Below are positions 5,644 to 62,057 of a stretch of DNA of 64,000 nt, one piece after another (position 1 is the first letter of the stretch; every line of letters starts with the position of its first letter). The DNA is taken from positions 30,646 to 94,645 of the forward strand of contig JANTQA010000074.1 in NCBI GenBank assembly GCA_027625915.1. Reading direction: 5' to 3'. Origin of the DNA: Anaeramoeba flamelloides. Lineage: Eukaryota > Metamonada > Anaeramoebidae. A program made the position numbers and the translations under genes. A model generated the notes under the pieces. That model ran no database searches and was not told the DNA's origin. It worked only from the letters and a program-made list of their open reading frames with translations.

Positions 5644-5683
<40 letters not shown>

Positions 5684-6371
5684 TATTATTACATTCTTTC
5701 TGTCTGAATTTCTCAAATTGATGCTCAAGAGAAGAAACATTGAGAATTTGAGCTTTGTTGTTTTTTATCGAGAGATCTTTTGTTTTTCTTGTAATCATAT
5801 TTATGCCGTAAATTGATTGTTGTTCATTGATTCGTTCATATTGTTCTTTTATTTGTTGGTTTTGCTTGTCTATTTGAAGATTTTGCTTGTCAATTTCTTG
5901 GTCTCGAGCTTTTTCCTGATTTTCTTTTCTCTTAATTTTTCTGTTCAATCTCTTTAAATTGTTTTTCTTTTTCTTTAATTCTCTTTTATCTTTTTCTGTT
6001 AACTGTGATTCTTTTTCTTCTTTTTCTTCTATTTCGATTTCTAAATTATCCAATTCCTCATAAAGCACATTAATTTCTTTTTTCGTTTCATCAAGATCAT
6101 TTTCAAGCTTGGATCTTCTTTGCTCCATTTGTTTACGTACCTCGATCATTTCGTCACGTTCCTTTTCAAGCTTGGTTCTTCTTTCTTCCATTTCATCAAG
6201 TTCATTTTCAAGCTTGGTTCTTCTTTCCTCCATTTGTTTGCGTACTTTGATCATTTCATCACGTTCCTTGATCATATCGTCACGTTCCTGATCAAGCTTT
6301 TTCATTCTTTCCTCATCTTGTTTCTCAGGTTCACTTTTTTTTTGTTTGGTTGCTTTGTTTCTTTGATCCAT
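3539..6371 (-). CDS. Coiled-coil / P-loop ATPase, three exons (gene 1)
   Basis: Proposed exons are 6371-5693, 5598-5548 and 5424-3539. The introns (94 and 123 bp) begin GTAATA and GTAAAG and end in TAG and AAG, both splices are phase 1, and the sum is 872 codons with no interruption. The last acceptor lacks a clear pyrimidine tract. Residues 1-225 are a charged coiled coil (repeats of KLENELDEMEERR and KQNQQIKEQ types). Residues about 245-840 form a P-loop NTPase: Walker A GVSGCGKT at about 333-340, Walker B IIIALDEAN at about 506-514, a sensor-like SGTALSL near 586 and a SGRPR segment near 655. The layout resembles STAND-like NTPases of Crinkler-type proteins, which usually end in a restriction-endonuclease-like domain. 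Here only the start of such a domain (GKAFEYLIALQLL) is present before the stop, next to the LINE tail. The substrate is unknown. A paralogue lies at 28016-31351. Confidence 0.75.
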
Positions 6372-14017: not shown

Positions 14018-15517
14018 CCTTCGATTAGGTTATTAAAAATCGTATTCCAAAAGGGGATTAATTTCAATCATAGATACACATCTTTTAAGGCTTTATTTTT
14101 CCATTATTTATGTGAAAACACAAAGAACAACCAAACAAAAACCATTGAATTTTTCATAAATGAAAATCAAGGGAAAATTGATATCAAACAAGTTGATTTC
14201 ATCAAGAGGAATGCATTGCATTATTTATGTAAGGGGCACCCAACTGTCAATGCACTTGAATTTCTAATTACAAGGGGATTTTTGATTAACGAGTTAGATG
14301 CTAAGAAACAGAACGCTTTCCATTATTTAAGTTCCGGAAACCCCACAATGAAGACAGTCAAATTTTTCCTTTCAAATGGAATCAATATCGATCAAACTAA
14401 CCAATTTGGACAAACTGCATTCCATTTTTTATGTAAATGTAAAAGTAAAAATCTCAATTTAGATTTGATCAAATTTTATCTGAGTAATGGTGCAAAGTTT
14501 GATGTCTGTGATCAGAACATGGAAACACCATTTTATTTCCTTTGCTTAAACAACCCAAAGTTAAAATATTTTGAATACTTTCTAAAAGGCATCTGCAAAA
14601 ACAATGTGGCTTCTTTTTCCACTCTTATGAATGAAACAAAGTCGCCATTTCATCGATTATGTAAACTTCACCCAAAGAAAAAATTTATTAAATTTTTTCT
14701 GGACCATGGATCAGATTTAAACCACAACCACCACAATGGCAATGAATACTACTCAGACAATTTTTTATTTCCTGAAAGATCGCCCTTTCATTCTATATGC
14801 TCAAGCGATCATCCAACCTACGATTTAATAAATTGGTGTTTCCAAAAAGGTGCAAATTGCATGAGAAAAGACGGCTACGGAATCACCCCATTTCATTACA
14901 TCTGCTGCAAACCGACGTTAACAGTACGCATGATGCAATTATTTTTAAATAATGGTTTTGAGATGAATACAACAGATTTAGCTGGAAGAACTGTTGTGGA
15001 ATATATTTTGAAATATAATCAAAAAATGGATTTGATTAATTTTTGTTTAAAACAAAAAGTATTCAATACCCATTGCATGAATTACAGAGGCCAATCCATT
15101 TTACATCTATTGTGTTACAACCAACACCCCAAGCTCAAAATAATTGAATACTTTTTAAAACAAGAAAAAATTCAGATCAATCAAAAGGATAACCATGGTC
15201 AATCTTGTTTTCATATCTTATGTTCATTAAAGAACCCTTCGTTTGAACTATTCCAATTGTTCTTCTTATATGGTGCAGATCCTAATTTGCTTAATAGGTC
15301 TCAAGAAACCCCTTTTTCAATTTATTGTAAAGAAAATAGACATTTAAAATCTGAAGATATTGAATTGTTTTTAAAAAATGATGCAAATGGGAAAATTAAA
15401 AATGTTTGTTTTCTTTTTCTTATTTTTGTTCTGATGATCGGGATTTTATTTTATTTCCTTTTCCTTTTCCTTTTCTTTTGCTTTTTCCTGGCCTATTTGA
15501 TATTAATCTCAACATAA
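14018..15517 (+). CDS. Ankyrin-repeat protein
   Basis: The frame is open from before 14018 to the stop at 15515-15517. There is no ATG near the start, so an upstream exon (perhaps 13097-13423) is expected; an acceptor-like TTTTTGCAAG ends at 14017. About eleven or twelve ankyrin units of 33-38 residues follow one another, with cores such as FHYLC, ALHYLC, TAFHFLC, SPFHRLC, TPFHYIC and CFHILC followed by 'LIKFFLSNGADIN'-type helices. Such arrays act as protein-binding scaffolds. The last about 35 residues (VCFLFLIFVLMIGILF...) are wholly hydrophobic and T-rich at the DNA level. They may be a terminal membrane segment, or intron/UTR translated past an unseen donor. The next gene on this strand starts 2.9 kb away. 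Confidence 0.75.
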   Translation, partial: PSIRLLKIVFQKGINFNHRYTSFKALFFHYLCENTKNNQTKTIEFFINENQGKIDIKQVDFIKRNALHYLCKGHPTVNALEFLITRGFLINELDAKKQNAFHYLSSGNPTMKTVKFFLSNGINIDQTNQFGQTAFHFLCKCKSKNLNLDLIKFYLSNGAKFDVCDQNMETPFYFLCLNNPKLKYFEYFLKGICKNNVASFSTLMNETKSPFHRLCKLHPKKKFIKFFLDHGSDLNHNHHNGNEYYSDNFLFPERSPFHSICSSDHPTYDLINWCFQKGANCMRKDGYGITPFHYICCKPTLTVRMMQLFLNNGFEMNTTDLAGRTVVEYILKYNQKMDLINFCLKQKVFNTHCMNYRGQSILHLLCYNQHPKLKIIEYFLKQEKIQINQKDNHGQSCFHILCSLKNPSFELFQLFFLYGADPNLLNRSQETPFSIYCKENRHLKSEDIELFLKNDANGKIKNVCFLFLIFVLMIGILFYFLFLFLFFCFFLAYLILIST

Positions 15518-18423: not shown

Positions 18424-21400
18424 CTTGATGGGAAAACTATCTTTGATCATATACTAGAAAAAAAACAAAAACTATTCAAGGATCTTGAATATTTAAAAAA
18501 ATTATTTCAAATCAATTTTCATTGTTTAAAACTCGATTTCCAAGCATTTTTACAAAGAAAGGAATTTACTAATTGTCAAATAAAAGGAATAAAATTACAT
18601 AAAATCATATTAGAATGGAGAACAAATAAAAGTTTTGAAGAAAATTTGAAAATTCTTAATAAATATCCAAAAGAAAATATATTAGAATTTATAAATTGGA
18701 TATATTTTGATGCAATACCAAACAAATATTTCTCTAAAAATTCAAAATTCAAAAAAAATAAATATATAAGAAGTAACAACAATATTTCAGAATATCAAAT
18801 AAATTCAAACATAAATTTCCAAAATGAAATGAAAATGAAAAATTCCTCACAAATTGACAATTATTCTAAATTTTATCCAAAAATCCTGAGTGATGATGAC
18901 CTTGAAAATGAGCATTATAAAAATTATCTCCAAGAAAATAATAATGCTAATTACAACCCCATAGTTAATTCTTCAAAACCACTACGAAAAACTGAAATTT
19001 TCACAAATTCCTCAAATTTAAAATCAAATTATGTATTAACAAAAACGGGATCTGAGAATGACAAAATAATACGAAAAATACAATCAAATGAAAATTTTCA
19101 AAGAAAAAGGGGAACTGGAAAAGTGATTAAAATATCTAAAGAAAGAAAGGTGTTAAAATATAAAGATAAAATGAAACAAAATCAAATATATAGCCACAAC
19201 CAAAGACATAGACACAAAAAGAAACATAGAATTAGTTATAGGCATAGAAATAAGCATAGACATGGGCATAGTCATAGCCATAGACATGGGCATAGACATA
19301 TGCAGAGACATGGGCATAGACATAAACATAGGCATAAACATAGACATGGGAATGAACATGGAAATAGACATAGACATAAACATAGACATCAGCATAAACA
19401 TAGAAATAAAGATATATATAAACATAAAGATAAACTCAGAGAAAGAAAGCAAAAAAGAGAAAAAGAAATTGAAAGAAGAAGAAAGAAAAAGATGAAAAAG
19501 CATAAAGATCATTCAAAACATTACCAATTCGAAAATCAACAAAATATATCTCAAATGAAAGAAAAGTTCAAGGAAAAGGAAAATGAAAACAAAAAAAAAA
19601 AGAAAATAAAATATCATAATAATAGTTCAGATAACATTTCAAATGATATTGATCAAAAAAATGAAAAAGAAGAAGTAGAAGATATTGATTCTGAAAATAT
19701 TTTTTCTGATGAATCTTATACTGAAAATGAAAGTGATATTAATCAAGAGATTGAAAATTTCCAACAACAAAGAAATTCATCAAGTACTTTAGTTGACAAG
19801 AAAGGCTTACCCTTTGCAAATTTAAAAGCTAATCAAATTTTAATTGACTTGAGGAATACAGAAGGATCGATTTATTTTTTGGAGCCTCTTGATCCTATAC
19901 AATTAAACCTCCCAACGTATTTTGATGTCATTAAAAATCCAATGGATCTTTCAACAATACAAAAAAAGCTGAATAAAAACCAATACCCAACATTTCGTGA
20001 CTTTGCTTCTGATTGTCGATTAATTTTTGATAATGCTTTAAAATTTAATTCACCACAAACTACTGTTTATAATATTGCTTTAGAAATGAAAAAAAAGTTT
20101 GAAAATCTTTATAAAAAAACCAATCATATTTTTACTGAAGAAAAAAATCAGAAAGAAGTTGAATTGAAACAAAAACAATTAGTATTAGAAAAACAAAATT
20201 TAAAAGACAGGGAAAGAGAAAGGGAAAGGAAAAAATTAAGAAAGTTGAAAAAAGAAAGAGAAAGAGAAAAAGAAAAAAAAAAAGAATATTGTTCCTTTGA
20301 AAATAATCAAACAAACAAAATTATTGAACAAGAAGTAAAAAAAAACAAATTAGTAAACAAAAATAATTCAATTATAATTTCATTAGGGGATAAAAAACCT
20401 TTCACTGTGAATTTAGATTCATCCTCTAACTCAAAATATCAAAATAGAGATAACTCAGGTGATTCTGATCGAAAAATAGAATCAAAATCTGATAAAATAA
20501 AACAATTCAAACCAAAAAACAAACAAATAATAGATAAAACAACAACCACTAACATGATTAATTGGATTGAAATTGATAATGAAATTTTAATTTACGAAAG
20601 TTTAAAAAACAAAACAGAACCAAAATCTAAATTCGAAAAAGAATCTTGGAAAAATAAATTTAATCAAACAGAGCCTCAAAGAAAAATATCAAAAAACCAA
20701 AATCAAAATGAGATTATAATAATTGACAACACATCAGAATCAGAAAAAGAAAAAGAAATTAATCTATCAACAGAAATTAATCTATCAACAGAAACAGAAG
20801 CAGAATCAGAAACAAAATCAGAAAAAGAAAAAGAAAAAGAAAAAGAAATAGATCTATCAACAGAAACAGAAACAGAAACAGAAACAGAAACAGAAACAGA
20901 AACAGAAACAGAAACAGAAACAGAAACAGAAACAGAAACAGAAATAGAAATTAATCTAACAACAGAAACAGAAACAGAAACAAAAACAAAAATGGAGATT
21001 GATGGATTAAAAAAAGAGAACACACAAGAGGAAAATTCAAACAATTTTAAAAAAATATTACAAGAGTATAATATTTCTTTAACCTGTAGGAAGTTCACTT
21101 TAAAATACTCTTTAAAGAAATTATTTTATGATGAAAATTCAAAAGATTTTACAATTATTCTTAATAAAACAAATGAAAAATTAAAAGTACACAAATTTAT
21201 TTTACAATGCCGAAGTGAATTATTTCGGAATATGTTTTTAAATATTAGTGATCCATCAATTAAAGAAATAAAAGATTACTCTAAAAGATCTTTAGATTCA
21301 ATGAAAGTTTTATTAAAATATTTATATATTGAAGAGATTGACCAGAAAAATATATCAACAAAAATAAGAAAGGAACTTAGTGACGCAATAATATTCTATC

Positions 21401-21618
21401 AATTAAACTCAAATAGTTCTTTAAATTATTACTTAGGTACACTTTAAATATTTTGGCATTCATTATTTCGTCTTGAACTTTAAATTATTTTCTAGAATTT
21501 CGAACAAAATGAAAAAGTTTCTTGAAATTCTGTTATTTATAATTTTAATGGAATTTAATTTTTAGAAAAAATTCCATGTATTTACGATCATTATTATCAA
21601 TTAAAATGTTCACCTTAA
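18424..21618 (+). CDS. BTB-bromodomain-BTB protein
   Basis: The main exon is 18424-21436. It is open from a good acceptor (CATTTTTAG ending at 18423) and carries no ATG near its start, so a 5' exon is missing from this model. A donor (TTAG then GTACAC) leads over a 129-bp intron to exon 21566-21618 (EKIPCIYDHYYQLKCSP, stop). Residues 1-105 look like a divergent BTB/POZ fold (LDGKTIFDHILEK, FTNCQIKGIKLHKIILE, FINWIYFDAI). About 255-345 is a striking His/Arg/Lys repeat. About 462-570 is a bromodomain (YFDVIKNPMDLSTIQKKL, then FDNALKFNSP with the acetyl-lysine-binding Asn near 541). About 812-840 is (TE)n. About 885-1005 is a second BTB (DFTIILNKTNEKLKVHKFIL, LLKYLYIEEI). It is likely a nuclear protein that reads acetylated histones and dimerises through BTB. 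Bromodomain and C-terminal BTB are clear; the N-terminal BTB is tentative. Confidence 0.85.
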
Positions 21619-24705: not shown

Positions 24706-27700
24706 TATTAAGTAATTCAAGAGATGATTTAATTGTTGAATTGTTGAATAAAATGTTACTAAAAAATGTTTTACAAATGAGCATAATGAATAGTGATTCT
24801 GCTTTTAGACAGTGTTTTCTTTTCAAAAAATTTCATTTTTGAGTCAAAAAAAGTAATTCCTGAGAAAGATTAATTCATTACTTTAAAGCAGAGAAACTGT
24901 TTATTCCAAAGTTGAATTCCATCAATTTTACTTAAATTCCTGTATAATCTGTCAAAAAATTCACAAAAAGCGAAAGTAAAAGAAAATTAAATCAAATCTT
25001 TGTTTATTTTGGTTATTTACCTATTGTAGTCTTAAATAAAATCATTTGTGTTTCAATTCTAAGACTCCTTGTCCTGTTTGACTCAAAGACAAAAAAAAAT
25101 TTACATTTTGAATATTTGTTCAAAAAAAATCAATAGTTTAAATTTGTTGAAAAAACGAAGAACAAAATGAAAAAATTGTTTAAATCGAAACAAAAAAAAT
25201 GTTCCCATTTTGACGATTTAATTCAAGACATTTACACCACAAACAATAACAACAACAAAGCAAGAATTAAACTAGTTTCCGAATTTTATAGAGTATTTTG
25301 TAAAAATAATTCACAATTATCCCAACCACAACAATAATTTTAAATTGGTTTTTTCTTTGTCTTTAAAATTCAAAAAATAAAAAACAAATTACCGACTTCC
25401 TATTGAAACTGTTTTTTAACAACTTTTTTTCTCTTTTTCGAAAACAAAAAAAATATTTTTATTCCAAAAACAATATAACTTTATGAACAAAACACGTAAC
25501 CCTACACAAAGACAATAAAAAAACACTTGTTTACATAACAAATCATAGATCTAAAACAATAAATAATACTTACATTGGAAAAAATAGGAATGTTCTTAGT
25601 TTAAAAACGATATTACAACAAATACCACTGATTTTTTTTATTCTTGTACTGATTAAAAAAAAGAAATCAAAATAATCTTTTCCCAACAAAACTATAAAAA
25701 AAGGATTTCATTCAAACACATAATCGAAAGAAATGTTTAGGACAATAATTTTTGGAGGAGATTTCAATCTTAGTAATGAAAAATAAAATACAATAATTAA
25801 TAAAAGATTTTCGATAAGTGATAATAAACCTACATAGCTCGACAAATTATTATCAAAAAATTTCAAAGAAATTTATCAAAAAGTTCTCAATTCAATAAAT
25901 GTTTTTTAGTTTTTGAAAATTTTTTATAAGAGTGATTCTGGCCGCCATTATTTTTTTTCTTTGGAGATAATTCTCAATTTTTCCAAATGATTCTAAAAAA
26001 CCTGCTAAAATACATTTTTTTTTAATTGTCAGCCGGTACAAAATAACGGGAATTTCGGTATAATTTGTAATAAATAGTATCAAATTTGATTTAAATTTTG
26101 ATTTTACGATTTAATAAATATGGAGATTCCAATAATAATTTTCTCAGATTTAGTAATACATTAAAAATTATTTATTATTCCTGACTTTGACAATTAAAAA
26201 GACCAATTATTAAGATGGGTGCATTTCTAAAATAAAAACAAAAAAAAAGTTAATATTGTAATTTAAAAACTTAATACTTCGTAAATCTCTAGATTATCAG
26301 AGAAGTCATTTTTTTTTTAATGAAATGATTTAATTTTTATCATTTTGAATTGTTCGATTTCAATCTGAAGAGAAAAAAAATATATGTATTTCTGAAAGTT
26401 TTGAATATTCATTTTTAATTTTCAATTTAAATTTTTTTTTTCAATACATCATCATTATTTTTTTTTGAAAAGGATCCAAAGGCTTGGAGTGATTGATTGA
26501 TTTCAAATCTTCTTAATCTTCCCAAAAAAAAACAAATTTGAATAAAATTTTTTTTGAATGAAATATGGAACTTTTTTGACTTAAAAAAATATATTTATGC
26601 TTCAGGAAATAGTCTTAATTTCCCTCCACATTTCAAACTCTTATTATAAAAAATAATTCATTTTTTTCAATTTTAAACTCTAAAATCTGATGGTAGTAAC
26701 AATAATTTCAAAGTTGAGAAGTTTCCAAACTCAATTTATCTAACTCGAATTGAAAAATCAGAAAACACAATACTGACTTAATTGACAAGATTAGAAATAA
26801 TAAATTCCAAAATTTTATCATAATTTGAGAATCAAGTTTGAATTTTTTAAAAAGTATAAAATTTAATGTCATGTTTTTGACTATTTATTCGAAAGTAGAT
26901 CCCTCAAAGATCTTGAAGTTATTTGATTTTAAAGTTTTTTTGATAAAAGCAATTCAACTTGTTGAAAACGGTGAATAAAAATTTTTTTTGGGGATTTTTA
27001 AAAATTATTTTTTACTTTTTTTCTTCTCTTTTTTTAGACTTCTTCTTATATCTTTTGTCTTTTTAGATTACAAGACCGAGTTTTGTAGATTTTGGTATTT
27101 CCAAATATTTCATGTTTTGAATATAAGTAAATTTACGGAATACAAATTCAATTGAATTTTCGGAAAAGTGGTCAGAATTTCAATTTCCAAATACAATTCC
27201 CTTTTAGTATTATTTTTTTTACAAACAAATAAAAAGAGTAATTTTAATTTGAAGAAAAAGAGATCGAAAAAAAAGGAAGACATCCTTGTACTTTTTTACA
27301 TTTATTTGTTCTTTTTTAAATATTTCCTTCTAAGAATGGATATTTTAAATATGTTTTTCTTTTATTGCAAAAAAAAACCTTTATGGAAAATAAAAAAACC
27401 AAAGCTTTGATTTGTTATCTTTTGATATTGGGTTGAAACTTCAGGAACCAAAAATCTCTTCAAATTAACAAGTTCTTTAGAGACTTCCTTTAAACTCTAC
27501 ATATTCTTGAAATACATGATCATTGGATAAATTTTACTGTTAAGAGGATATATTTTCAATTAATTATTAGAAAAATTAAAATTCATTATAGCTCCAATAT
27601 CTGAACCCTAAGAAGGTTGTGTTCTGAATTCCCTTTTTGATTTTGGCACAATATTTTTCTCTGATTAATCTGAACCAAAAATGGAGAAAATATTTATATT

Positions 27701-27784
27701 TTCGAATTTTTTTTACAGAACAAATTTATTGATTATTTAAATTAATTAATTAATTCATATTAGAAGAAAAAAAAAATGATTAAT
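24706..27784. other. Non-coding AT-rich sequence
   Basis: Three kilobases without a recognisable gene or repeat boundary. Small frames at 25892-26083 (-) and 27168-27410 (+) show no family resemblance and no support. Confidence 0.5.
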
Positions 27785-27975
<191 letters not shown>

Positions 27976-28015: not shown

Positions 28016-29096
28016 TTATAAATCATGATGCCATGTTCTTGATATGATAGTTTTTGAATCAAAAATTTGATAATAATTTTTTGGAGTAAAAATTAAAATG
28101 AATGATTTGAGATTTTCAGGAATAATATTGTCTTGTTGTTCGGAATCTGAAATCAATATAAAGATAAAAGGAATTTCATAAGTAATTAATTTAATTTTAT
28201 TCCATTCATTTAAAAGATGGATTTTATTTGTTAGACCACTTTTTGATTGAATTAAAACAAGGAAATATTCTGGATTTATTGTTGGATTTTTTTTTAATCG
28301 TTTTTGGTTTAATCCAGTATTAAATTGATCTGTTTTTAAAATTTGATTTCGTTGCCAGATCCATTTCTCCAATGCAATATCTTGATCTTCTTCTTCAATT
28401 GGTAATACGAGAAAGGAATCAGCAAATGGCGAATTAGGAACATTTAGAAATCCAATTCCTTTTCTGAATAATTTTTCATTAATAATTTGATTTGTAAAAT
28501 TTGAAGGTTTAATTTGTACTGTATTAATAGCTATTAGGCTATTGTTAAAAGGATTTTTTTTTTTCTTCTTTTTTTTTGTTTTTGATTGTAATTTGATAAT
28601 TTTGATTTGTTTATATTTAAAGTTAAACTCAATTTCTGAACAAAATAATTGAATATTTTCAAAATTATCATTTTTGTTTCGAGTATTAATAATATTAAAA
28701 TTATTATCATAATGATAATAATTATTATTATCATAATCATAGTTATATTTGTTTGTAAAAATTATTCGTTTTAAAATGATATTTTGTTCTTCTTCAACAA
28801 ATATTTGTTGTTGATGAGTGGTGGTGGTTTGGGAATTAATAATAAAATAATTGTGAATTCTGAAAAGAAAATTTTGAAGATCATCAATTTCATTGGTTGC
28901 AAAATTATTGGTTTTTGTTGGTGTTTGTAATATTTTTGGTAAATAAATAAAAGGAAGAAACTTTGAGTTTTTTAAAATTAAATCAAGATATATATAGGGT
29001 AAGACTATTAAACTTTTCTCATTTTTTAATTGCTTGCGAAATATGAGCCCATCATTTTCCAGATCAAGTATAGACTTTTGTATATATTCTACGTTC

Positions 29097-29146
<50 letters not shown>

Positions 29147-31351
29147 ATTATTATTATTATAATTATTACTCTTAATAATCTTCAAATTAAAGTAAGAATC
29201 TGAATCTATTGGTTGTAGGAAAATTGAATAACTGAATAATTTTAATTTAAAAATTGGATCTTGTTTGTTTAAAGTGTTAATTGAAATCATTTTTACATTA
29301 CTATTGATTTCTTTTTGAATATCTTTAAAAATTTGAGTACAAGTTTTTGGATTTTGTGAATCATGAAATATAAATTTCTCAATAATTTCACTATTTGAAA
29401 GTTCTTTGGTTTTTTCTTCTTCATTTTTTTGATCAGAGAAAAAAAGATTTCTTTTAATGTTCTGATTTTGAAGAATACATAACAAAAAATATTCAAATAG
29501 TCTTGGTATACCTTCGATATTGACAAGAAGAAATTGGATACCCCTTGGAAGAGATTCAAATTTTAACTTTTCTTTTTTCCCAAGTAATTTTTCAAGGATC
29601 TCTAAATAATTTTCCTTTGTCATTAAATTTATTGAAATTTGTTTTGGAAATCGTGAACTTACAGATGCTATATGTTGAACAGAATTTTTTGCTTGTGTCC
29701 CACAAAAAACAGGCATCAAAAAGATATTACTCCTCATAAGAGCTGATTTTTCTTTCATAACTTGGAGATATAGATTCGCAAGATAATTATTTTCATTACG
29801 GTTATCAAGATTCAAAATCTGATTTGTTTCATCAAATACAATTATTACCATTAACCAATCTATGGTTTTTTTTTGTTTCTGTTTCTGTTTCTGTTACTGT
29901 TGCTGTTTCTGTTGCTGTCGCTGTTGCTGTTTCTTTTTTATCTTCTTGTTAAACAGTAAATCATGGAAATTAGTAAATATTGTCTCTAATGAATCAATAT
30001 TATCGGCTAATGTTTTTAAAGCTTGTCCGTCCAAATTGTCAGAGTATTGTTCCATTTTCTGAAAACTTGATAAATTAAATAAAATCCGATAATATAAACT
30101 TTTTGCAATGTTTATCTTTACATACTCCCATGGTTCTAGTGAGACTTTGGCAAAGTCTATATATATAAATAAATTGTTCTTGAGAAAATTGGTATAAGAT
30201 TGTCGTAAGTTCTTGATTTGATTACAATTGTTTTTATCTTGGAATTTTTTTAATTGATTCTCAAATTCCTTTTTGAAGCTTTCTTGATAAAAAATTGTTT
30301 TTGCAAGCCTTGTTTTCCCGATCCCACTTGAGCCAAACCAAGTTAAATTTGTGATTTTTTTCCCCGATTGATCCTCAAGTCTTAAAAAATCACAAATAAT
30401 TCCCTTGACAATTTCGCCGATTTCATGTTTTCTATTGACAAATGGGATAGAGTCTTCGTTAAATTCATCAATTGTCTTGATGAGACTTTGTTCATTAAAT
30501 AGTTTGTTTGGTGGCTTTTTTTTGTTTTTTATATTTTCTTTCGAATGTTTTAAAAAGCACTTTAAGATTTTTTTAATTTCTATATTGAAAGGTTTTGGTT
30601 TATTTTGTTGTTTTGTTTGGTTTTTTTGTTTAAATGAAAAGAGAGAATAAGTCCAAAAACAATAAAAAAAAAAAAAAAAAAAAAAATTCTTATTCTAAAA
30701 AAGATTAATTTAAGAAGAGGAAAGCATACCTTGAGTTTTTTGTTCTTGTGTTAGGTTTTGTGGAACTTTGACAATTATGAGATCTTTTGTTTTTTTTGTC
30801 AGCGCATTCATATTAACTCTTCCTTGTTGTTGATCGATTCTGTTCTTTTGTTCTTTGATAAGTGTGTTTTGTTCTTTGATTTTTTGGTCTTGCTTTTCGA
30901 TCTGTTCGTTTTGCTTGTCAATTTGGAGATTTTGTTCTTTGATTTGGACATTTTGTTTATCAATTTGTTGATTTTGTTTATCGATCTGATTTTCTTTTCT
31001 CGAAATTTTTCTTTTCAATCTATTTAAATTGTTTTTCATTTTCTTCAGTTCCTTTGCTTCTTTTTTTGTTAACTTTGATTCTTTTTCTTTTTCTTTTTCT
31101 TTTTCTTCTTCTTCTTCTTCTATTTCTTCTATTTTCATTTCTAAATCATCCAATTCATCATAAAGCACATCAAGTTCATTTTTCATTTCCTTCAGTTCAT
31201 CTTTCATTTCATCAAGTTCATTTTCCATTACATTTCTTCTTTCCTCCATTTGTTTGCGTACTTTGATCATTTCATCACGTTCCTGATCAAGTTTTTTCAT
31301 TCTTTCTTCCATTTGTTTTTCATATTCACTTTGTTTTTGGTTTGGGTTCAT
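28016..31351 (-). CDS. Coiled-coil / P-loop ATPase with nuclease-like tail (gene 2)
   Basis: Proposed exons are 31351-30730 and 30579-28016, with a 150-bp intron that starts GTATGC, ends ATATAG and is spliced in phase 1. The coding length is 1062 codons. Residues 1-200 are a coiled coil nearly identical in plan to gene 1 (EERMKKLDQERDEMIKVRKQ). The ATPase part carries Walker A GSSGIGKT at about 290-297, Walker B VIIVFDET at about 452-459, CGTQ near 500 and EGIPRLFEYFL near 563, followed by a long Asn run. The C-terminus (about 920-1050) has GFLNVPNSPFADSFLVLP and YFLVLIQSKSG, a D...Q-x-K arrangement like restriction-endonuclease folds in Crinkler-type NTPases. Reading is not continuous between the Walker A and Walker B halves (at least one interruption in a Gln-rich spacer), so this copy may be a pseudogene or need a further intron. 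DNA or nucleotide targets are unknown. Confidence 0.65.
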
Positions 31352-31610
31352 GTTGATTGATTGCTTTCTTTTGAAAAAATTACAAAAAAAAAAAAAAAAA
31401 AAATGAAAATAATGAAAAAAATGATTAATCACAGAAACCAAAATCATAGAAATCACAGAAACCACAACTTATTTTTTCAGTTCAAAAAAATTGGTAAATC
31501 AAAAATATAAGTGTATTTATTAAGAGAAAGATTTTATTGTGTAATTTTGTTTTGATTTTTGTTCAAAAGGTAAAAATTTTTTATCTTTTTTTTTTTTTGT
31601 TTTCTTCACC
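31352..31610 (-). promoter_or_regulatory. 5' flank of gene 2, resembling that of gene 1
   Basis: It contains a poly(A) run (31382-31402 on plus), a short GAAACCACA-type repeat (31425-31470) and AT-rich sequence in the same order as the gene 1 flank (6372-6600). The parallel suggests that duplication carried the 5' flank along. No specific promoter motif was identified. Confidence 0.35.
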
Positions 31611-43795: not shown

Positions 43796-44130
43796 GGTGG
43801 GTGGTTTTATAGAACGAAAATTGATGAAAATCGAAAATTTCCGAAAAAAACTATTGATTATTAGTGTTAAATATTGAATATATTAAATATTTATTGAAAA
43901 TTTTCGAAATTATTGAATATTTTGAGACAATTTTAGAATTATTGATAAAAATAATTGAACTTTCAATTTTTCTTTTAATTTTTCAATTATTAATCAAATT
44001 ATTCAATATTTTATTTTTTTTACAGAAATAAAATGATTCAATAATAATTATAATTATTCAAAAAAAATAAAATTAATCAATAATAATTGTTAAAAAAAAA
44101 TCTAACTTTAACTAGCCTAATCTAACAACA

Positions 44131-44152
44131 CCCTACCCTACCCTACCCTACC
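44131..44152 (+). repeat. Telomere-like (CCCTA)4 tract
   Basis: Four perfect CCCTA units plus CC, followed by degenerate CCTAACC/CCCAACC units to about 44225, all inside the foldback element. Confidence 0.85.
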
Positions 44153-44287
44153 TGACCCAATCTAACCCGACCCAACCTAACCTCCTACTAACCCAACGGT
44201 ACCTAATCTAACCAAACCTAACTTAAACTTAAAATTAACCTAATTATTGAATAGTTTGATAAAATTTTTGAATTATTGATATAAGTA

Positions 44288-49190: not shown

Positions 49191-49380
49191 GATCTTTAAA
49201 ATGTCTTTTAAAGAAAATGAAGAAAGTTTAAAATGTCTTTAAAGCATCTTTAAAATGTTTTTAAAGCATTTTTAAAAGGTCTTTAAAAAGACTTTTAGGG
49301 ATGGTAGAAATTGCAGGTTTACTTAAAGGAAAGAAAAAAGTTTCACAAGTCGAATGGAACGGTTGTAATAGATCTTTGTT

Positions 49381-49687
49381 TTAATAATATTGTGTGAATA
49401 GTTGATGTTTGATGTATTTTGTGAATAAGAATTTATGTTAATTGGTATTTTAATTGATGTGAATTGTTAGTTATTTGTTTGTTTGTTAATTAAAGATTTA
49501 TTATGGATTGTTCTTTTAGATATGTTGTTATTATTGTTTAAAGTTGTGTATTGATATGTGTGTGTAATTGATGATGTGTTTTTATTTAATTTATTATTTA
49601 AGTATATTGAGGTAGTTGTGTGATGTTGGTGTGATTTTCATCAGGCCATCTAAAGATGGCCTATCATTTCTACTAAAGTAGAAATGA
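49381..49687 (+). ncRNA. C-depleted tract ending in twin TAAA hairpins (copy A)
   Basis: 49381-49638 contains a single C on the plus strand. It is followed by hairpin 1 (GGCCATC/TAAA/GATGGCC, 49644-49661) and hairpin 2 (10-bp stem TCATTTCTAC closing a TAAA loop, 49664-49687). Homologous copies lie at 57601-57960 and 61281-61559. An RNA role is inferred from the structure only. Confidence 0.5.
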
Positions 49688-50560: not shown

Positions 50561-50969
50561 TTATAATTATTAACTGGGATTGTTATAAATTGGGGAAATT
50601 TGGCAAATTGAACTTTTATTTTTAAAGTTAAATTTTAATCAATTTTTTGTATTGTTTAGTTGGTTATTTGAGATATTTCTATCGTTTAAATGAAATTACG
50701 ATAAAAATCCGATAAGTAATTGTTGAGTAAATAAATAAAATAAAAACGCCAAAAGTCGGTTTTTACATGTTGTTTGCCAAAGATTTTCTAGTTGGCGAAA
50801 ACTAATTTTTGATAATTCCGATTTTTTCTCGTAAATTTTGATATATATAAGACTTTCCCGATTTCAATATATTTAAATTCTGAATATTTTGGAATTATTT
50901 TGATCAAAAATAAATTTACAAGCACTATTTTATCAAAATTTTTCATAAATAATGTAAAAATATTGATTA

Positions 50970-51772: not shown

Positions 51773-52774
51773 TAAATATATGTTAAAAATCAAAATTATC
51801 AAATAAATTATCAATATTTTTACATTATATCGAAAAATTTTGACAAAATATTGCTTGAAAATTGCTTTTTGATCAAAATAATTCCCAAATATTCAGAATT
51901 TAAATATATTGAAATCAGGAAAGTCTTCTATATATCAAAATTTTGTTAAAAAATCGGAATTATCAAAAATTAGTTTTCGCCAACTAGAAAATCTTTGGCA
52001 AACAACATGTAAAAACCGACTTTTTACGTTTTTATTTTATTTATTTTCTCAACAATTACTTATCGGATTTTTATCGAAATTTCATTTAAACGATAGAAAT
52101 ATCTCAAATAATCAACTAAACAATACAATAAATTGATTGAAATTTAACTTTTAAAATAAAAGTTCAATTTGCCAAATTTCGCCGTTGCTGTTTTTCGCCA
52201 AATTCAATATTTCTCTTATTAACTTTAAATCCTAAATAAAATAAAATATTCTAAAAAAAAAACAAATCATGGAAGTACAATGTTTGATATTTCCCAAATT
52301 ATCTTCATATTTTAATCTCCAATCAGATTTAAATTTTAAAGTCAGGTTAAATAGTAAATGGTTTAGAATTTGGGAACAAAAAATTTTATTATTTGTTTGA
52401 TTTTTCTTTTTATAATGTAAACCAAAAGAAGAAGAAATTTTTGGAAACGGACCTAAAATCTGAAAACTTGTTATTAAAAAATTTTTGGATTTATAATATC
52501 AGAGATTTTCTAGCCTAGATAATAAATTATGATCAATTTTATAAATTCTACAATAAACAACTCTAACTTTCAAAGATCACTTGTCTATGGATTTTGAACA
52601 TTGAGTTATATTTATTGTTCAATTCACAGGTAGGACAATTTTTTAAACGGGAAAACTCAAAAAAAAACCCACGAATTCCATGCGTTGCGACCGCGTAGAC
52701 TAAAGAATTTTTCGAAAATTCACGTTTAATTGTCGAGATTTCTTTATTTATCTTACTTGACTAAAAAATCTATA

Positions 52775-55390: not shown

Positions 55391-56127
55391 TTTTTTTTTT
55401 GGATTGGACACAAGTTCTCAAGATCTCTAATGAGGTTAATATTTTATCTTTTTTGGATTTTGAATAGAATAGAATCTTCATTATCAAATAATATAAACCA
55501 AAGGTTTTTATTTAATGAGTTTGTTTTTGATAAAATTTTTAAGATGTTTGTATTATTATCAGTAAAATAAAAAATTGATAGTTTCAAGATAAATTGGGTT
55601 GTGGTGGTTTATAAAAGCTTTGAAGATAATGATAATATTTTCAAAGATCTCAGGAAAAGTAAAATTTTATAACATCAAAACTGTATAAATGTAAGTTTTG
55701 TTATTTATTTAAAAAACAAAAAATTAGAATAGTTAAACAACGAGATTGGTAATTGAAAATTTGATGTTTGGGGGTGTTTAAAAAGAGGATTTGGTTGTTG
55801 TAAATCTCACAAATACTGATAAAATGCAATTTATATTTGGCGATTTTTTCCTTATTTTTCCTTTTTGAAATTTTTAAGATCAAGCATTGAATAAAGCATT
55901 TTTTAGAATTCAAGTGTTAAGAAACTCTGTAAAATTAGTTGTTCTTCAAAATATTCTTTGTCTGGGAACTGTTTGATAAAAAAAAGTTCGAAGATATATA
56001 AAAATGGAAATTAAACTCGAAATTTATCAAAATTTATTCTTATTTATCAGTATTTATTCAGCGAGATCTAAGTAAGAAAAGAATGAATTTTTTTGATAAG
56101 AAAATGTAAGAATTGATCTCTACTGGT

Positions 56128-56205
56128 TTCTGTGATTTCTGTGATTTCTGTGATTTCTGTGATTTTGGTGATTGTTATAATTTCAGTGATTTCTATGATT
56201 GTTTA
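56128..56205 (-). repeat. 9-bp repeat array (GATTTCTGT)
   Basis: About eight GATTTCTGT-type units; the equivalent array in copy C is at 59865-59945. Confidence 0.75.
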
Positions 56206-56525
56206 AAGGTCTGTGTTATCTCAAAATACAAAAGAAGTATTGTAAAAATGAAATTTTGGGATTATTTACAATTGTGTGAAAATTGAAAACCATTTGATCT
56301 TTTTTGGGGAATTTGCCATAGTTTATTTTCAACCTGTGTAAGCTCGATTGAAAATAGATTTTTCAATTTTCACCTTTTAAAGTCAAAAATCTCGATAAAA
56401 ATTAAAAAAAATTTGGCATTATTGTTCAAAGATAGGTTCTTTGTTTGTCTTAAACAAAGTCTAAAGGGAGGAAAACAAGGTAAGGTGTTTGGGGTTGTAT
56501 TAAATCCAACATGTAATCCTCATTT

Positions 56526-56700
56526 CAACATAAAAAATCTCATGACTTTTAACAAGTTTACTGCCTATTCTAACTTTCAAACACTTTCAGACAATTTACA
56601 AACCAATTTAAAAACTTTTCAAACACTTTTCAACACTTTGAAGAGGAAATATTTTGCAAAAGTGATAAGCTTTGTAAAAGTCACAAGATTTTTTGTAGTG
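56526..56700. mobile_element. CACTA-like MITE, 175 bp (MITE2)
   Basis: Worn left end (CAACATAAAAAATCTCATGA), good right end (GATTTTTTGTAGTG). The homologous site in copy C (about 60340, CATTTCCGTAAAAC) is empty, indicating a 2-bp TT duplication. Confidence 0.75.
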
Positions 56701-57600
56701 TTCCTAAAAACAAAAATATCATGTTATCTCAAATCAACTGAGGTGAGCTGAAGAAAAAAATAAAATCTTTATTTTAAAAGATAAAAAACACTGATAAATT
56801 TTTGCTAAAATTTTTGATACAGAATCCTCAAATGTAAAATTCCACAAAACCTTTTACCATTGATACTCCAACCCAATTTTGATTGAACACAACAATTCAA
56901 TTTTTTCGAGAGTAACAAGACAAAAAAAAACAAGACAAAAAAAAAACATTATCTCAAAAAAACATAAAAATGAACAAAAGTGTTTGACAAGGAAGATTCG
57001 TTCAAAAAACAAAAACAGAAAAAATAATATCCAGCATAGATGCTAAGGAGAATTTCAATTAAAAACAGAAAGAATCGAAAAAACCAAAGGAACCTCAAGT
57101 AAACAAAAACGAATCAAAGAAACCAAAGGAACCAAAAAAACCAAAGATAAAGTCAGAATTCCTTTTTATGAAATTGTTCTGATTTGTGGTTACAAATTGA
57201 AAATTCATGCAACTTGATGATCAAAACTCAGATATACACGATCTTCAAAAGTTAGAGTCGTTTATCAAGAATGTTTGAAATGATGTTCCTTTTTCAAGTT
57301 CAGGAATCGTGATTATTTTTCAATTTCATTTTTAATGTTTCTTCATAAGGCATTTTTCGAGTTTAACTATGTTAAATTTTTTGTTCATTTTCCATTTCAA
57401 AAAATCGAAATTTTGATCCAATTTGTAGAATATATCTGTTTATAAAATTCCCTTTATATTTTTAATGTGATTGAGTCAAAATTCTTTTAGATGATAATTT
57501 TGTGAATTTCCAAACTATTTTTGAAAAGTTCTCAGTTGAATTTTGTTGTTGTATATAGGTTCACTTTTTTATATTTGTAGTAAATATACGAAATTTTATT

Positions 57601-57960
57601 GTGTTTTTGATGGACGATTTGAATGTTTTTTTGTGTTAAATTAATGATTTATGTTTGGTTTATTTGATGGTTTTGTTTGAGAATGTTTGTATGATTGTTG
57701 TTTGTTTGTTTTTTATGTTGTTTGTGTTATTATTTATGATTTTTAATATTTTTAATGTTGGAGTGTATTTTTGTTTGATTAGTTTTTGAATATATATGGT
57801 TAAAGTGATATTTTGTTTGTTTGATTGTTTAAAAATATGTTAGAATGTGAAGTTGTTAAAAGATTGTAGTGAATTGTTATGTCAGGTTGTTTTAATTTAT
57901 TGGGTGGTGTTTTGAAGACCATCTAAAGATGGCCTTTCATTTCTACTAAAGTAGAAATGA
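57601..57960 (+). ncRNA. C-depleted tract ending in twin TAAA hairpins (copy B)
   Basis: Two C in 317 nt on plus (57601-57917), then hairpin 1 (57917-57934, one mismatched pair at its base) and hairpin 2 (57937-57960, identical to the other copies). Confidence 0.5.
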
Positions 57961-58699
57961 GATTCACTTAGATATTTACAATTAAAATGAAAGAATAAAA
58001 AATTTACATTCTCTCAAATTTCAAAAAGATCCTAAAATTGGAAATTTTTTTTTTTTAAAATTAATCCACTGGCTTGTAATTATTTAGAAATGATCTAAAA
58101 AAATAAACTTCAGAATTAGTGTTGATGATTCCGAAAAAAGTTATGCATCTGAAAAAAACTATAAATTTTCAAAAAATAAAAATTGTTTATTTCCAAAATA
58201 AACAAAAATGTCGAGCTATTTAGATCAAAAACATTGAATTGGTAAATTTGTTTAAATTTCTCCAACATCGATTTTTGATCGATCAAATGAAAAGATATCA
58301 TCAACTCATTAGATGAGAATTTTTCTTTTCTACAAATTTAACATTAATCTTCATTCAAACTAAATCGAAAAAAAAATACCAGATCTCAGGAAATAGATTA
58401 CTTATATGGTAAAGAAGAAACGAAAATTTTTACAATAGAGACAAAAAATGAATTTTCATATTTTTTTCTAAAATCAAAAATTATTTTCAAATTGCATGTA
58501 AATTACAAGATTTTTTATTAGTTGAATTGTTTTAAATTGTGTCCAAATTGTTTATATTTTGTTCATATAGTTATATATAGGTATGTATGTATTTGAATCT
58601 TGTTAAGGAATAATGTCAGAATTCTTGACGTACCTAACTCAAAGTTTTTTTTTTCCTTTTCTAAAAAAAAATCAAAAAATATATATTTAGGTACCCAAC

Positions 58700-58953: not shown

Positions 58954-59637
58954 CTGAGAGTCAAAATACAGCGAGCAAAAAACTTTAATGCGTCTTTCAA
59001 AGCAAAAAAGCGTGTTTTTTTTGTTATAGAAGACCAACAATTAACTGATCCTAGAAACTGATAATAAAGCCTAAAAAAAATATGGTTTTGGTTTCTTAAA
59101 GTTCTGTTTTTTTAAATTGAAATTCTAAAAAATGAGGGATCAAATTACAAAATTTATCTCAAAAAATAGAGTTAATTTTTGATAAAATTTTTATCCTCAA
59201 AAATTACAAAAACATTAAAAAACAAAATGAGAATATTACAGTCATTTTCACTTTTAAGGCACAAACTTTCAACGAAATTTAAAGCACAAAAAAATCTCAA
59301 ATTAAGGCACAAAATTTGGAATTTTTTTTTTTTTTTACAATTTATTTTACTAGAATTTGAATTTTGTGCTTTAATTTGAGATTTTTTTTGTGCCTTAAAT
59401 TTCGTTGATAGTTTGTGCCTTAAAAGTGAAACTGACTGTATTGAAAATTTTTAACTATTTGCATGAATAATTTAAATTTTACTGAAAATATCCTAGGGTT
59501 TACTTACAAAATTGATTTGAAATTAGGTATACTAGTTGGTAGTAAATTGATGTTGCCTTGTAACAAGTTAAAAAAATGCACGAATAATATTTTGAAACAC
59601 AGATTATAATCTTTAGGCACGCATTATTTTGATACTG
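58954..59637 (+). mobile_element. Family 4 element with MITE1 inserted
   Basis: Left CTGAGAGTCAAAATACAG, right GCATTATTTTGATACTG. 684 bp minus the 200-bp MITE1 gives 484 bp, matching the 483-bp copy at 37733. Confidence 0.7.
59239..59438 (+). mobile_element. MITE1 copy
   Basis: CAGTCATTTTCAC ... GTGAAACTGACTG, TA-flanked, nested in family 4. Confidence 0.9.
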
Positions 59638-61280
59638 AAATAAAATTATTTCTTGAAAGAATTGAAAAAAAATTAAAAATCTAAAATTCAGAAATTGAAT
59701 TTCGTAACTAAATTTTTCATGACTAAGTTGGCAATTGAAAATTTGATGTTTGGTGTGTTTAGTATTGGTTTGACTCTTGGTAAATCTCATAAATATTTAT
59801 TCATGAGATCTAAGTAGGATAAATGAATGGTTTGAAAAAGAAAATGCCAGAATTGATGTCGACTGGTTTCTGTGATTTCTGGTGATTTCTGTGATTTCTG
59901 TGATTTCTGTGATTTCTGTGATTTCTGTGGTATCTGTGGTTTCGGGTGCTTTTTTATATTTTTAGATTTTGCTGGTTTCTGTGATTTCTTTGTTATTTTT
60001 GCAATTTATTTGATTTCTTTGATTTCTCCCTTGTAACTCAAAATTTAAAAGAATTTTCCGAAATTGAAAAATCAAATTTTTGAGATTGAAAATTTTTTTT
60101 ATGAGAAAATTGAAAACCATTTGACCTTTTTGGAAATATATTACATTCTATTTCTACTGTGTGAGAAGATAAAAATGGTTTTAATTTTCACCTTAAATTT
60201 CAAAAATCTCAAAAATTAACAAAATTTAGGAATTATTGTTGACAGGTTGCTAAGGTATATACAACTAAATTCTGTGTTGAATAAATATAAGGTAAAGTAA
60301 ATGGTATTTTCTTGAATCCAATTATAATTCTCATTTCCGTAAAACTAACAGATTATTTTTTTCTAAATCTTCTGGAAAAATTTAAATTATTTTTTGAAAT
60401 ATAGATCCATTTTCATAAAGTTATTTCTGTTTTTTTTTTATGAGATGGTCTGAATATAGAATTCCACAAAACAGTTCACACTATTTGTCAATCTCATTTT
60501 GTTTCTAACACAACTAATTGGGTTTAAAAAAAAATCCAAACAGAAAGATTTATTGCAAAAAATCAAAAAGCTATCCCAAAAAAAAATAAAAAATACAAAG
60601 TGTGTTTTGATGGAAGATTCTTTTAAAAGAATAAAAAAAAGAAAATAATATCCACCAAAGATCCTCTTGAGAACTTCACTTTTTGAATAAACCAAAATAA
60701 CCAAAACCATATAAACTAAAAAAACCTAAACAAATTTACAATTTCTTTGTGGGAATTGTTATGATCTGTGGGTAACAAATTGAGAATTCAATCAACTCGA
60801 TGATGATAATTCATATACACACGATCTTCAAATATTAGAGTCGCTTATCAAGAATGTTTGAAAGGATCTTCATTTTTCAAGCTCAGAAATCGTAATTATT
60901 TTTCAATTTTCATTTTTATTTTAATGTTTCTTAATAAGGGTGTTTTCGAGTTTAGTTATCGAAAATTTTTTTGTTCATTTTCCCTTTAATAAATGTACAG
61001 AAGATGAAAATTTGATCGTAATTAGAAAATAATCTTAAATTTATTTGGCTTCAGAATTTTGAGAAAAATTGGATTAGTTCTAGAATTGATTATTTTGGGA
61101 ATTTCCGAATATATTTTGAAGTAGAAAATATGTTAGTTTGATTTTTATTTTCAGTGATCAAATATTTTTTGTTTTAGGTAAGAATTCTGTTTTGGTTGTT
61201 AATTTGTTTTGGTGGACGATGATTTTATTGATGTTGGTATGAAAAAATCGATTTATGTTGTTTTAGAGTAGAAATTGTGA

Positions 61281-61559
61281 GTTTATTTTATGAATAAAGG
61301 ATATTATATGGTGTTATTCATATTGTATTTTTTAGGTTATTTTGAATTATTGTAATGTAAAATGAGATTTGTTATGAAGTATTTGTGATGTTGTTTAAGT
61401 TTTTTTGTTTGATTTTGTGTATTGTTTATTTGATTATTTTTAGATTATTGTAATTAATATAGGATTGTTTAAATTTTGGAGAATAATATGTATTTTTAGT
61501 GTTGATGTTTTCTAAGGCCATCTAAAGATGGCCTTTCATTTCTACTAAAGTAGAAATGA
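61281..61559 (+). ncRNA. C-depleted tract ending in twin TAAA hairpins (copy C)
   Basis: Two C in about 230 nt on plus (61281-61512), then hairpin 1 (61516-61533, perfect) and hairpin 2 (61536-61559). Confidence 0.5.
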
Positions 61560-62057
61560 GTTTATTATTTATGTTTACAATTAAAATCAAAGAATAAAAA
61601 TTTACATTCTCTCTCAAATTTTAAATGATCCGAAAAATGAAAATTTTTTTTTTTTGAGATTTTAATCCACTGACTCCAAATAATTCAGAAATGATTTCAA
61701 AAAATAAACTTCAAGATTAGAGTTGATAATCCAGAAATTGGAAATTTTTGAAAAAACTATAAATTTTTCTAAAAAAATAAAAATTGTATTATGTTAAAAT
61801 GATGAAATGATGAAATGAACGGGTTAGAAAAAAAAAATTTTTTGTAAATTTGTTCAAATTCCTCCAACAACAATTGTTGATCGATCAAATGATAAGATAT
61901 CATTAACTGATTGTATGTGGATTTTTCTATTCAACAAACTCAACATTAATCTTCTATCTTTAAATCAAAAAAAAAAAATAAATTTCGAAATTTAATGAAA
62001 CAGATTTCTAAAATGGTAAAAAGGGAAATGAAAAAAAAAAGCAATGAAAAACAAATA

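Follow-up and report, generated by a model that had tools for sequence, protein, structure and literature searches.

What maintains two neighbouring palindromes almost unchanged at several places of an Anaeramoeba flamelloides contig? The question arose from a stretch of 64,000 nucleotides (the window) spanning positions 30646 to 94645 of contig C74, that is, the right end of this contig of 94645 bases. The loci were compared with one another and with the genome of A. flamelloides (254 Mb, 76 contigs). The palindromes are one half of a real two-part module, in which a tract coded by its composition adjoins twin dyads. The tract is the stranger half.

Twin palindromes in the window and in the genome

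Direct reading finds the three twin hairpins of the original prediction where it had placed them, at 49644-49687 (copy A), 57917-57960 (copy B) and 61516-61559 (copy C). The layout is palindrome 1, GGCCATC-TAAA-GATGGCC, a linker of two nucleotides (TA in copy A, TT in copies B and C) and palindrome 2, TCATTTCTAC-TAAA-GTAGAAATGA. The arm pairs are GGCCATCT/AGATGGCC for palindrome 1 and TCATTTCTAC/GTAGAAATGA for palindrome 2. Palindrome 2 is the same letter by letter in the three copies, as had been noticed. Palindrome 1 does differ in copy B, but the difference is not the base-pair change that had been proposed: this copy reads GACCATC...GATGGCC, a one-sided change that places A opposite C and breaks the pair.

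49644..49661, plus strand: palindrome 1 of copy A, 7-bp arms, TAAA centre (direct reading; exact match to the 150-copy 18-mer)
49664..49687, plus strand: palindrome 2 of copy A, 10-bp arms, TAAA centre (direct reading)
57917..57934, plus strand: palindrome 1 of copy B, one pair broken, A opposite C (direct reading)
57937..57960, plus strand: palindrome 2 of copy B (direct reading)
61516..61533, plus strand: palindrome 1 of copy C (direct reading)
61536..61559, plus strand: palindrome 2 of copy C (direct reading)

The surroundings diverge, in agreement with the first reading. An alignment of copies B and C from the hairpins rightward has 77% identity in 546 columns, and the right flank of copy A is different. 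The statement that no described element is recognised also holds with respect to Rfam, no family of which reaches its cut-off in the window.

In the 254 Mb, palindrome 1 has 150 exact matches (63 + 87) and the same pattern read backwards has none, which excludes a chance origin of the twins. With up to two mismatches, palindrome 2 gives 425 strand-wise matches (211 + 214), against none for its control. Since palindrome 2 differs from its own reverse complement only at two loop bases, intact copies match on both strands, and the 425 matches thus correspond to about 210 copies. Hence the conservation of the pair beyond its diverging flanks extends to far more than three loci. The exact 34-base twin is found 126 times genome-wide, as a dispersed family; positions were analysed for 100 of these 126 matches. 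Palindrome 2 is recognisable beside an exact palindrome 1 at all 37 sites that were fetched (L089-L125). A viral or prokaryote source was rejected, as exact matches to palindrome 2 number zero in both a viral and a prokaryote collection. Two adjacent hairpins, as in mobile double-hairpin elements, are present in many copies here; an unsystematic look revealed neither a transposition end nor a target duplication.

A tract kept in composition and free in sequence

About 410 nucleotides of GT-rich, nearly C-free DNA precede nearly every copy, on the same side. At most 12 C occur in the 300 nucleotides before palindrome 1 in 51 of the 53 copies having long flanks, and the pooled composition of the tract in those 51 copies is T 54, A 24, G 20 and C 1.6%. 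When the tract is measured leftward until a 60-nt window holds five C, its median length is 410 (5-95% range 260-612; 53 copies). Within a set of 110 copies, the median C content is 1.7% in the up to 300 nucleotides fetched before palindrome 1, with more than 5% C in nine of them. A profile of 32 copies gives 1.4-1.9% C in the bins from -300 to -100 before palindrome 2, and about 8-14% beyond 700 nucleotides to the left as well as to the right of the hairpins; the transition is abrupt at the hairpin side and gradual at the other. The original prediction says nothing of such a tract, although the interval to which it was attached, 57601-57960, covers most of that of copy B.

49345..49643, plus strand: C-poor GT-rich tract of copy A (composition scan; left limit approximate)
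57532..57916, plus strand: C-poor GT-rich tract of copy B (composition scan; left limit approximate)
61153..61515, plus strand: C-poor GT-rich tract of copy C (composition scan; left limit approximate)

When the window is scanned strictly, requiring no more than 5 C and no fewer than 25 G per 250 nt, the only hits are these three tracts and, at 27676-27956, a TTG microsatellite. Looser limits bring in 55501-55800 (plus strand) and 43971-44270 (minus strand), both without a recognisable twin, which are possibly decayed modules.

Several origins of the tract were considered and rejected. Open runs on either strand are no longer than in shuffled sequences, as opposed to what a coding tract would give. 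ATG is depleted, but equally so in the flanks, so that avoidance of start codons is not a property of the tract. Words enriched in the tract are composition-like or come from few copies, and no shared motif was retained. Nor are gene flanks C-poor in general: around seven ORFs of the window, every 300-nt flank, whether 5′ or 3′, holds more than 5% C. Finally, telomeric repeats are not the source, because three-unit runs of TTAGGG or TTTAGGG occur nowhere in the genome and the G-bearing strand would run the wrong way. The composition has finer constraints: GG is avoided (odds 0.48 in the tracts), and TTTTTT is seen 112 times against 238 expected in 42 tracts, while it is above expectation in both flanks.

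The tracts of random pairs of copies, compared from -424 to -24, align no better than dinucleotide shuffles. Many of these same pairs are homologous on both sides, at roughly 68-82% in the repeat on the left (repeat R, see below) and roughly 66-86% in the right module. When right flanks are at least 0.90 identical, tract identity is 0.919 versus 0.721 for shuffled sequences (23 pairs); with right flanks at 0.80-0.90, it is 0.743 versus 0.719 (266 pairs). Thus, tracts are inherited at first and then lose their likeness before the right flank does. In 18 close, non-independent pairs, differences between C and T account for 17 of 248 in the tract, compared with 80 of 335 in the right flank. On a plain reading, the composition of the tract would be maintained and its sequence free. 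The window itself illustrates the point: the tracts of copies B and C are unrelated in sequence and their right flanks 77% identical, so that the recent joint copying of the three loci, envisaged with the original prediction, is not seen. DNA segments kept in composition, free in sequence and limited by a sharp, sequence-defined edge are rarely so clean, and the many copies make this one testable.

Are the tract and the palindromes coupled? Over the 110 copies, tracts are richer in C where palindrome 2 is changed (rho 0.37, p 8e-5, a value that ignores the relatedness of copies), and right flanks are not. The shared age of copies could produce this correlation. Changes in palindrome 1 have no link with C in the tract (rho 0.01), which counts against coupling.

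Position, polarity and flanks

Among the listed exact twins on contigs of at least 0.9 Mb, 36 of 41 lie within 250 kb of an end, in zones that represent 3.3% of the total length of the eight long contigs. All 36 point inward, with the tract toward the end. Outward-pointing twins near contig ends occur among the other listed matches, at C34:15866, C43:5716 and 8448, and C48:21796. The units form arrays in which they are spaced a few kb apart. Two exact twins are divergent, C24:11537947 (minus strand) and C24:11543326 (plus strand); the distance between them is 5.4 kb, at about the middle of a 24.3 Mb contig, and a divergent start region is possible there.

As for the ends themselves, no short telomere-like repeat is present at the 23 readable ends among 24 contig ends (L039, L042-L047, L057, L149-L164), the last one reading N. 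The right ends of C24 and C43 and the left end of C46 consist of GC-rich degenerate CCTGG DNA. Anaeramoeba nuclear genomes are described as A+T rich in the available part of the genome paper (PMC11550330), the main text of which, as distinct from its supplements, mentions neither telomeres, subtelomeres nor Hi-C.

56051..57527, plus strand: repeat R, an interspersed element in its own right that precedes the tract in type-1 units (limits are where matches begin and end)
59794..60993, plus strand: repeat R again, preceding the copy C tract (matched pieces; probably extends to about 61110)
57961..58426, plus strand: module to the right of copy B (homologue in copy C: 61560-62034; 77% over 546 columns including the hairpins)
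61560..62034, plus strand: right module of copy C (homologous to 57961-58426 of copy B)

Repeat R also occurs alone inside chromosomes. All six solo interior copies L079, L081, L082, L165, L166 and L168 end at AGTCCTTAA, and a seventh interior copy, L167, continues into C-poor DNA. In L165, the AGTCCTTAA end runs into its reverse complement (AGTCCTTAAGGACTAC). These ends suggest that repeat R may be a DNA transposon with a TTAA target. Since the six solo copies end as they would at a TTAA target, a retrotransposed RNA was dropped as its origin. The right flanks fall into several kinds (the clustering, which over-merged, placed 92 of 110 in one cluster); the common core is therefore the tract plus the twin. 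Recent near-identical pairs exist, such as copy B and C38 (98-99%).

Other repeats were seen on the way. Many type-1 copies have a mini-frame after palindrome 2. A long inverted repeat with 247-nt arms, 94% complementary, is formed by 50592-50838 and 51937-52183, and the segment 48323-49198, just left of the copy A tract, matches its own reverse complement at 87%. Palindromic repeats of about 200 nucleotides are scattered in both orientations over 36521-63995 of the window, for example at 59217-59460; they belong to families D11 and D13, with 18 copies listed for each, and also sit at several contig ends.

Conserved sequence rather than conserved pairing

The original prediction had favoured selection on an RNA or single-stranded DNA structure. 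In 107 copies having 2-nt linkers, stem changes comprise 43 transitions and 50 transversions. A control in which the letters of the 3′ arm were shuffled was applied to 60 distinct sequences. Paired cells in the stems amount to 94.3% in the observed and 94.3% in the shuffled set, and one cell has both partners replaced by those of another standard pair, compared with 1.3 after shuffling (two copies in the 110-copy set). Compensatory changes are thus at the level of the shuffles, and selection on a folded structure is not supported. A structured RNA was rejected on this basis and for want of any match to Rfam at gathering scores in the window. The conserved property appears, from these alignments, to be the sequence of the palindromes and not their pairing. 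Stems decaying as fast as their flanks had been named as a contrary observation; decay does occur in some copies, but it is less than that of the flanks.

In palindrome 1, variation in one arm mirrors that in the other (r 0.88) and ATC/GAT hardly varies, which is the pattern expected of a dyad binding site. The half-site AAGATGGC presumably resembles the mammalian YY1 site. The arms of palindrome 2 have no mirror-image variation, which counts against a dyad at this position. Its loop behaves in another way. Among the TTNA loops of copies with perfect stems, seven are TTTA, one is TTCA and none is TTAA; the single copy with a TTAA loop carries a stem change. Seven inverted loops with the TTAA intermediate in no perfect-stem copy are likelier to come from a flip than from two point changes. 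Palindrome 2 has therefore probably flipped, a hairpin event at the DNA level that would be separate from the covariation result.

Genes downstream of the module

Three interior twins (L175, L176, L177) were fetched for their position only, on the downstream side. All three are followed by a gene-like frame on the same strand, at 1.54, 1.45 and 1.07 kb, respectively. In L175, the frame P0003 starts 1.54 kb after the twin and has a precomputed B-box domain (PF00643). In L176 and L177, a frame of a coiled-coil family starts 1.45 and 1.07 kb after palindrome 1, and that of L177 continues with a P-loop NTPase segment (GSSGIGKTRL). The coiled-coil/P-loop NTPase family includes the frames of L176 and L177, window frames 6371-3539 and 31465-28016, P0001 and P0002. 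The NTPase reaches the cut-off of no Pfam family; it matches nSTAND6 weakly (E 0.06-0.11). Two subtelomeric units, L178 and L179, chosen because a gene match was near, have this family at 2.3 kb. Outside the window, all five units studied thus have a same-strand gene downstream, two having been picked for the nearby match. Gene-bearing units include those at C33:8577462, C46:754598 and C57:3210875. All units of an array point the same way, a confounding factor from which only the interior cases (C33, C46) escape.

The converse count is less favourable. The NTPase segment occurs at 22 places in the genome (25 rows), and a same-strand twin lies within about 10 kb upstream at ten of them among the matches listed. 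The other 12 have none within that distance among these matches, which counts against a 5′ module. On the upstream side, a same-strand frame ends about 625 nucleotides before palindrome 1 in L177 (C33), and repeat R, with no gene, precedes the unit of L175.

In the window, copies A, B and C have no recognisable gene downstream, and 36000-64000 contains no ORF of at least 120 aa. Frames 3539-6371 and 28016-31465, both on the minus strand, are interrupted members of the coiled-coil/NTPase family with no twin upstream in the window. A single frame at 18646-21447 (plus strand) encodes a bromodomain together with a BTB domain, and another at 14216-15517 (plus strand) has ankyrin repeats.

Possible functions of the module

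The unit may be imagined as a directional 5′ control module serving subtelomeric gene units, made of a GT-rich tract and two dyads and comparable to the GT-rich promoters of trypanosomes. It is our first choice, held tentatively and at something short of an even chance, because the excess of G and T on one strand, as in Trypanosoma brucei promoters, comes together with polarity, a kept composition and genes downstream. In such a model, the tract of about 400 nucleotides would be recognised by its composition rather than its sequence, the strand read left to right being GT-rich and almost devoid of C. The two adjacent palindromes would be putative protein dyad sites on double-stranded DNA, fixing the end of the tract. 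Transcripts would begin within the tract or next to it and proceed rightward, away from the telomere, to genes that lie 1.1-2.3 kb further downstream. The anatomy of the units, the association of tract with palindromes and the polarity are observed; we infer protein binding, promoter activity and the start site. Several observations go against this 5′ module. For a promoter, 1.1-2.3 kb is a large distance; a recognisable gene is missing from many units of the arrays, the three of the window among them; the family gene at 31465-28016 has no twin upstream; and the frame ending upstream in L177 is what a terminator would predict likewise. Moreover, the T. brucei elements, as far as the available part of their description goes, hold long G/T stretches, whereas these tracts avoid GG and long T runs. 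Further results that speak against it are the two C-poor stretches that have no twin, the nine copies with over 5% C in the tract position, the outward-pointing twins and the restriction of mirror-image variation to palindrome 1. A stronger version, in which a promoter or punctuation sign of Anaeramoeba would be written in composition, any GT-rich, C-free stretch of about 400 nucleotides lacking long T runs being suitable if it abuts two fixed protein-binding palindromes, is possible but somewhat doubtful. If the module does start transcription, it would provide a handle on gene control in Anaeramoeba, with promoters serving polarised subtelomeric gene units.

The main rival is a terminator or insulator, which we consider unlikely though deserving serious attention. 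Here, the tract would be a GU-rich termination zone for inward transcription, possibly also an R-loop zone, and putative proteins on the palindromes would act as a roadblock in the manner of Reb1. Such a zone would account for a strand in which G exceeds C and T exceeds A and which stops sharply at the palindromes. The C33 unit, placed about 625 nucleotides after one same-strand frame and 1.07 kb before the next, suits it as well, and Reb1 is reported, in the part of the source available, to terminate TERRA transcription in yeast subtelomeres (PMC9531808). However, the L175 unit follows repeat R and not a gene, and no such tract flanks the seven ordinary ORFs of the window. If correct, this explanation would define a new kind of subtelomeric boundary.

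The remaining explanations give the DNA itself, or mere descent, the main role. Hairpins or cruciforms could serve in replication or recombination, as a fork barrier, an origin, a recombination point or the terminus of a unit under amplification; to the left of the palindromes, C would be lost through strand-biased damage or repair of the single strand. Palindrome 2 has an inverted loop in seven copies whose stem is perfect and TTAA in no such copy, which indicates that it flips; the stems are kept in copies otherwise 66-86% identical to the right; and an excess of T and G on one strand is the expected residue of C loss where that strand is exposed. Yet stems lack covariation, C/T differences in the tracts of close pairs are fewer and not more numerous, and a change of C to T would not cause the avoidance of T runs; we regard a DNA-structure element as rather improbable. 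A passive repeat, spread with subtelomeric arrays and homogenised by duplication or conversion, its composition and palindromes having no present function, would agree with arrays of units a few kb apart, with recent pairs such as copy B and C38, and with the window copies that precede no gene. It is nevertheless disfavoured, and seems to us quite improbable, because palindromes that stay alike though flanks are unrelated or only 66-86% identical, and a poverty in C that outlasts sequence likeness, are unexpected without function or a very local process.

Comparison with known systems

A limited literature search found no published description of a tract-plus-twin module, and four known systems offer partial likenesses, each drawn from the available parts of the sources. 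Double-hairpin elements, or repetitive hairpin-forming ones, of mitochondrial DNA (PMC2800124) are also short, sometimes paired hairpins in many copies, with stems steadier than loops. The present units differ in being nuclear, in having two unlike hairpins in a fixed order and an adjoining tract defined by composition, and in their polarity along chromosomes. Arrays of HeT-A-type telomeric retrotransposons (PMC10088271) share the head-to-tail polarity at chromosome ends and the strand asymmetry. In contrast with HeT-A, neither a gag or reverse transcriptase frame nor a poly(A) junction was seen in the window units, and units are also found in the interior, beside genes.

The Reb1 sites of yeast X-elements (PMC9531808) are likewise subtelomeric, with conserved sequences resembling protein sites and a potential polymerase stop. 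No GT tract is described there in the part of that report available, and transcription would, in our case, run inward.

The fourth resemblance is to the GT-rich RNA polymerase II promoters of T. brucei, where synthetic GT-rich elements of 210 and 416 bp drove transcription in a direction-dependent manner, according to the available part of that study (PMC5579346). Traits of promoters of this type are directional transcription and H2A.Z deposition. Both systems have a coding strand rich in G and T over a few hundred nucleotides, defined by composition and free of motifs; both are directional. Trypanosome promoters have genes downstream on the same strand; here such a gene follows the five units studied outside the window, two of them picked for a nearby match, and none is recognisable after the three window copies. 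The A. flamelloides module differs from the trypanosome promoters, as that text presents them, in its near lack of C, its avoidance of GG and of long T runs, the pair of conserved palindromes that closes the tract, and its metamonad host. Should it start transcription, motif-free GT-rich promoters would exist in two distant eukaryote lineages, and the module would be a second independent case beyond trypanosomes.
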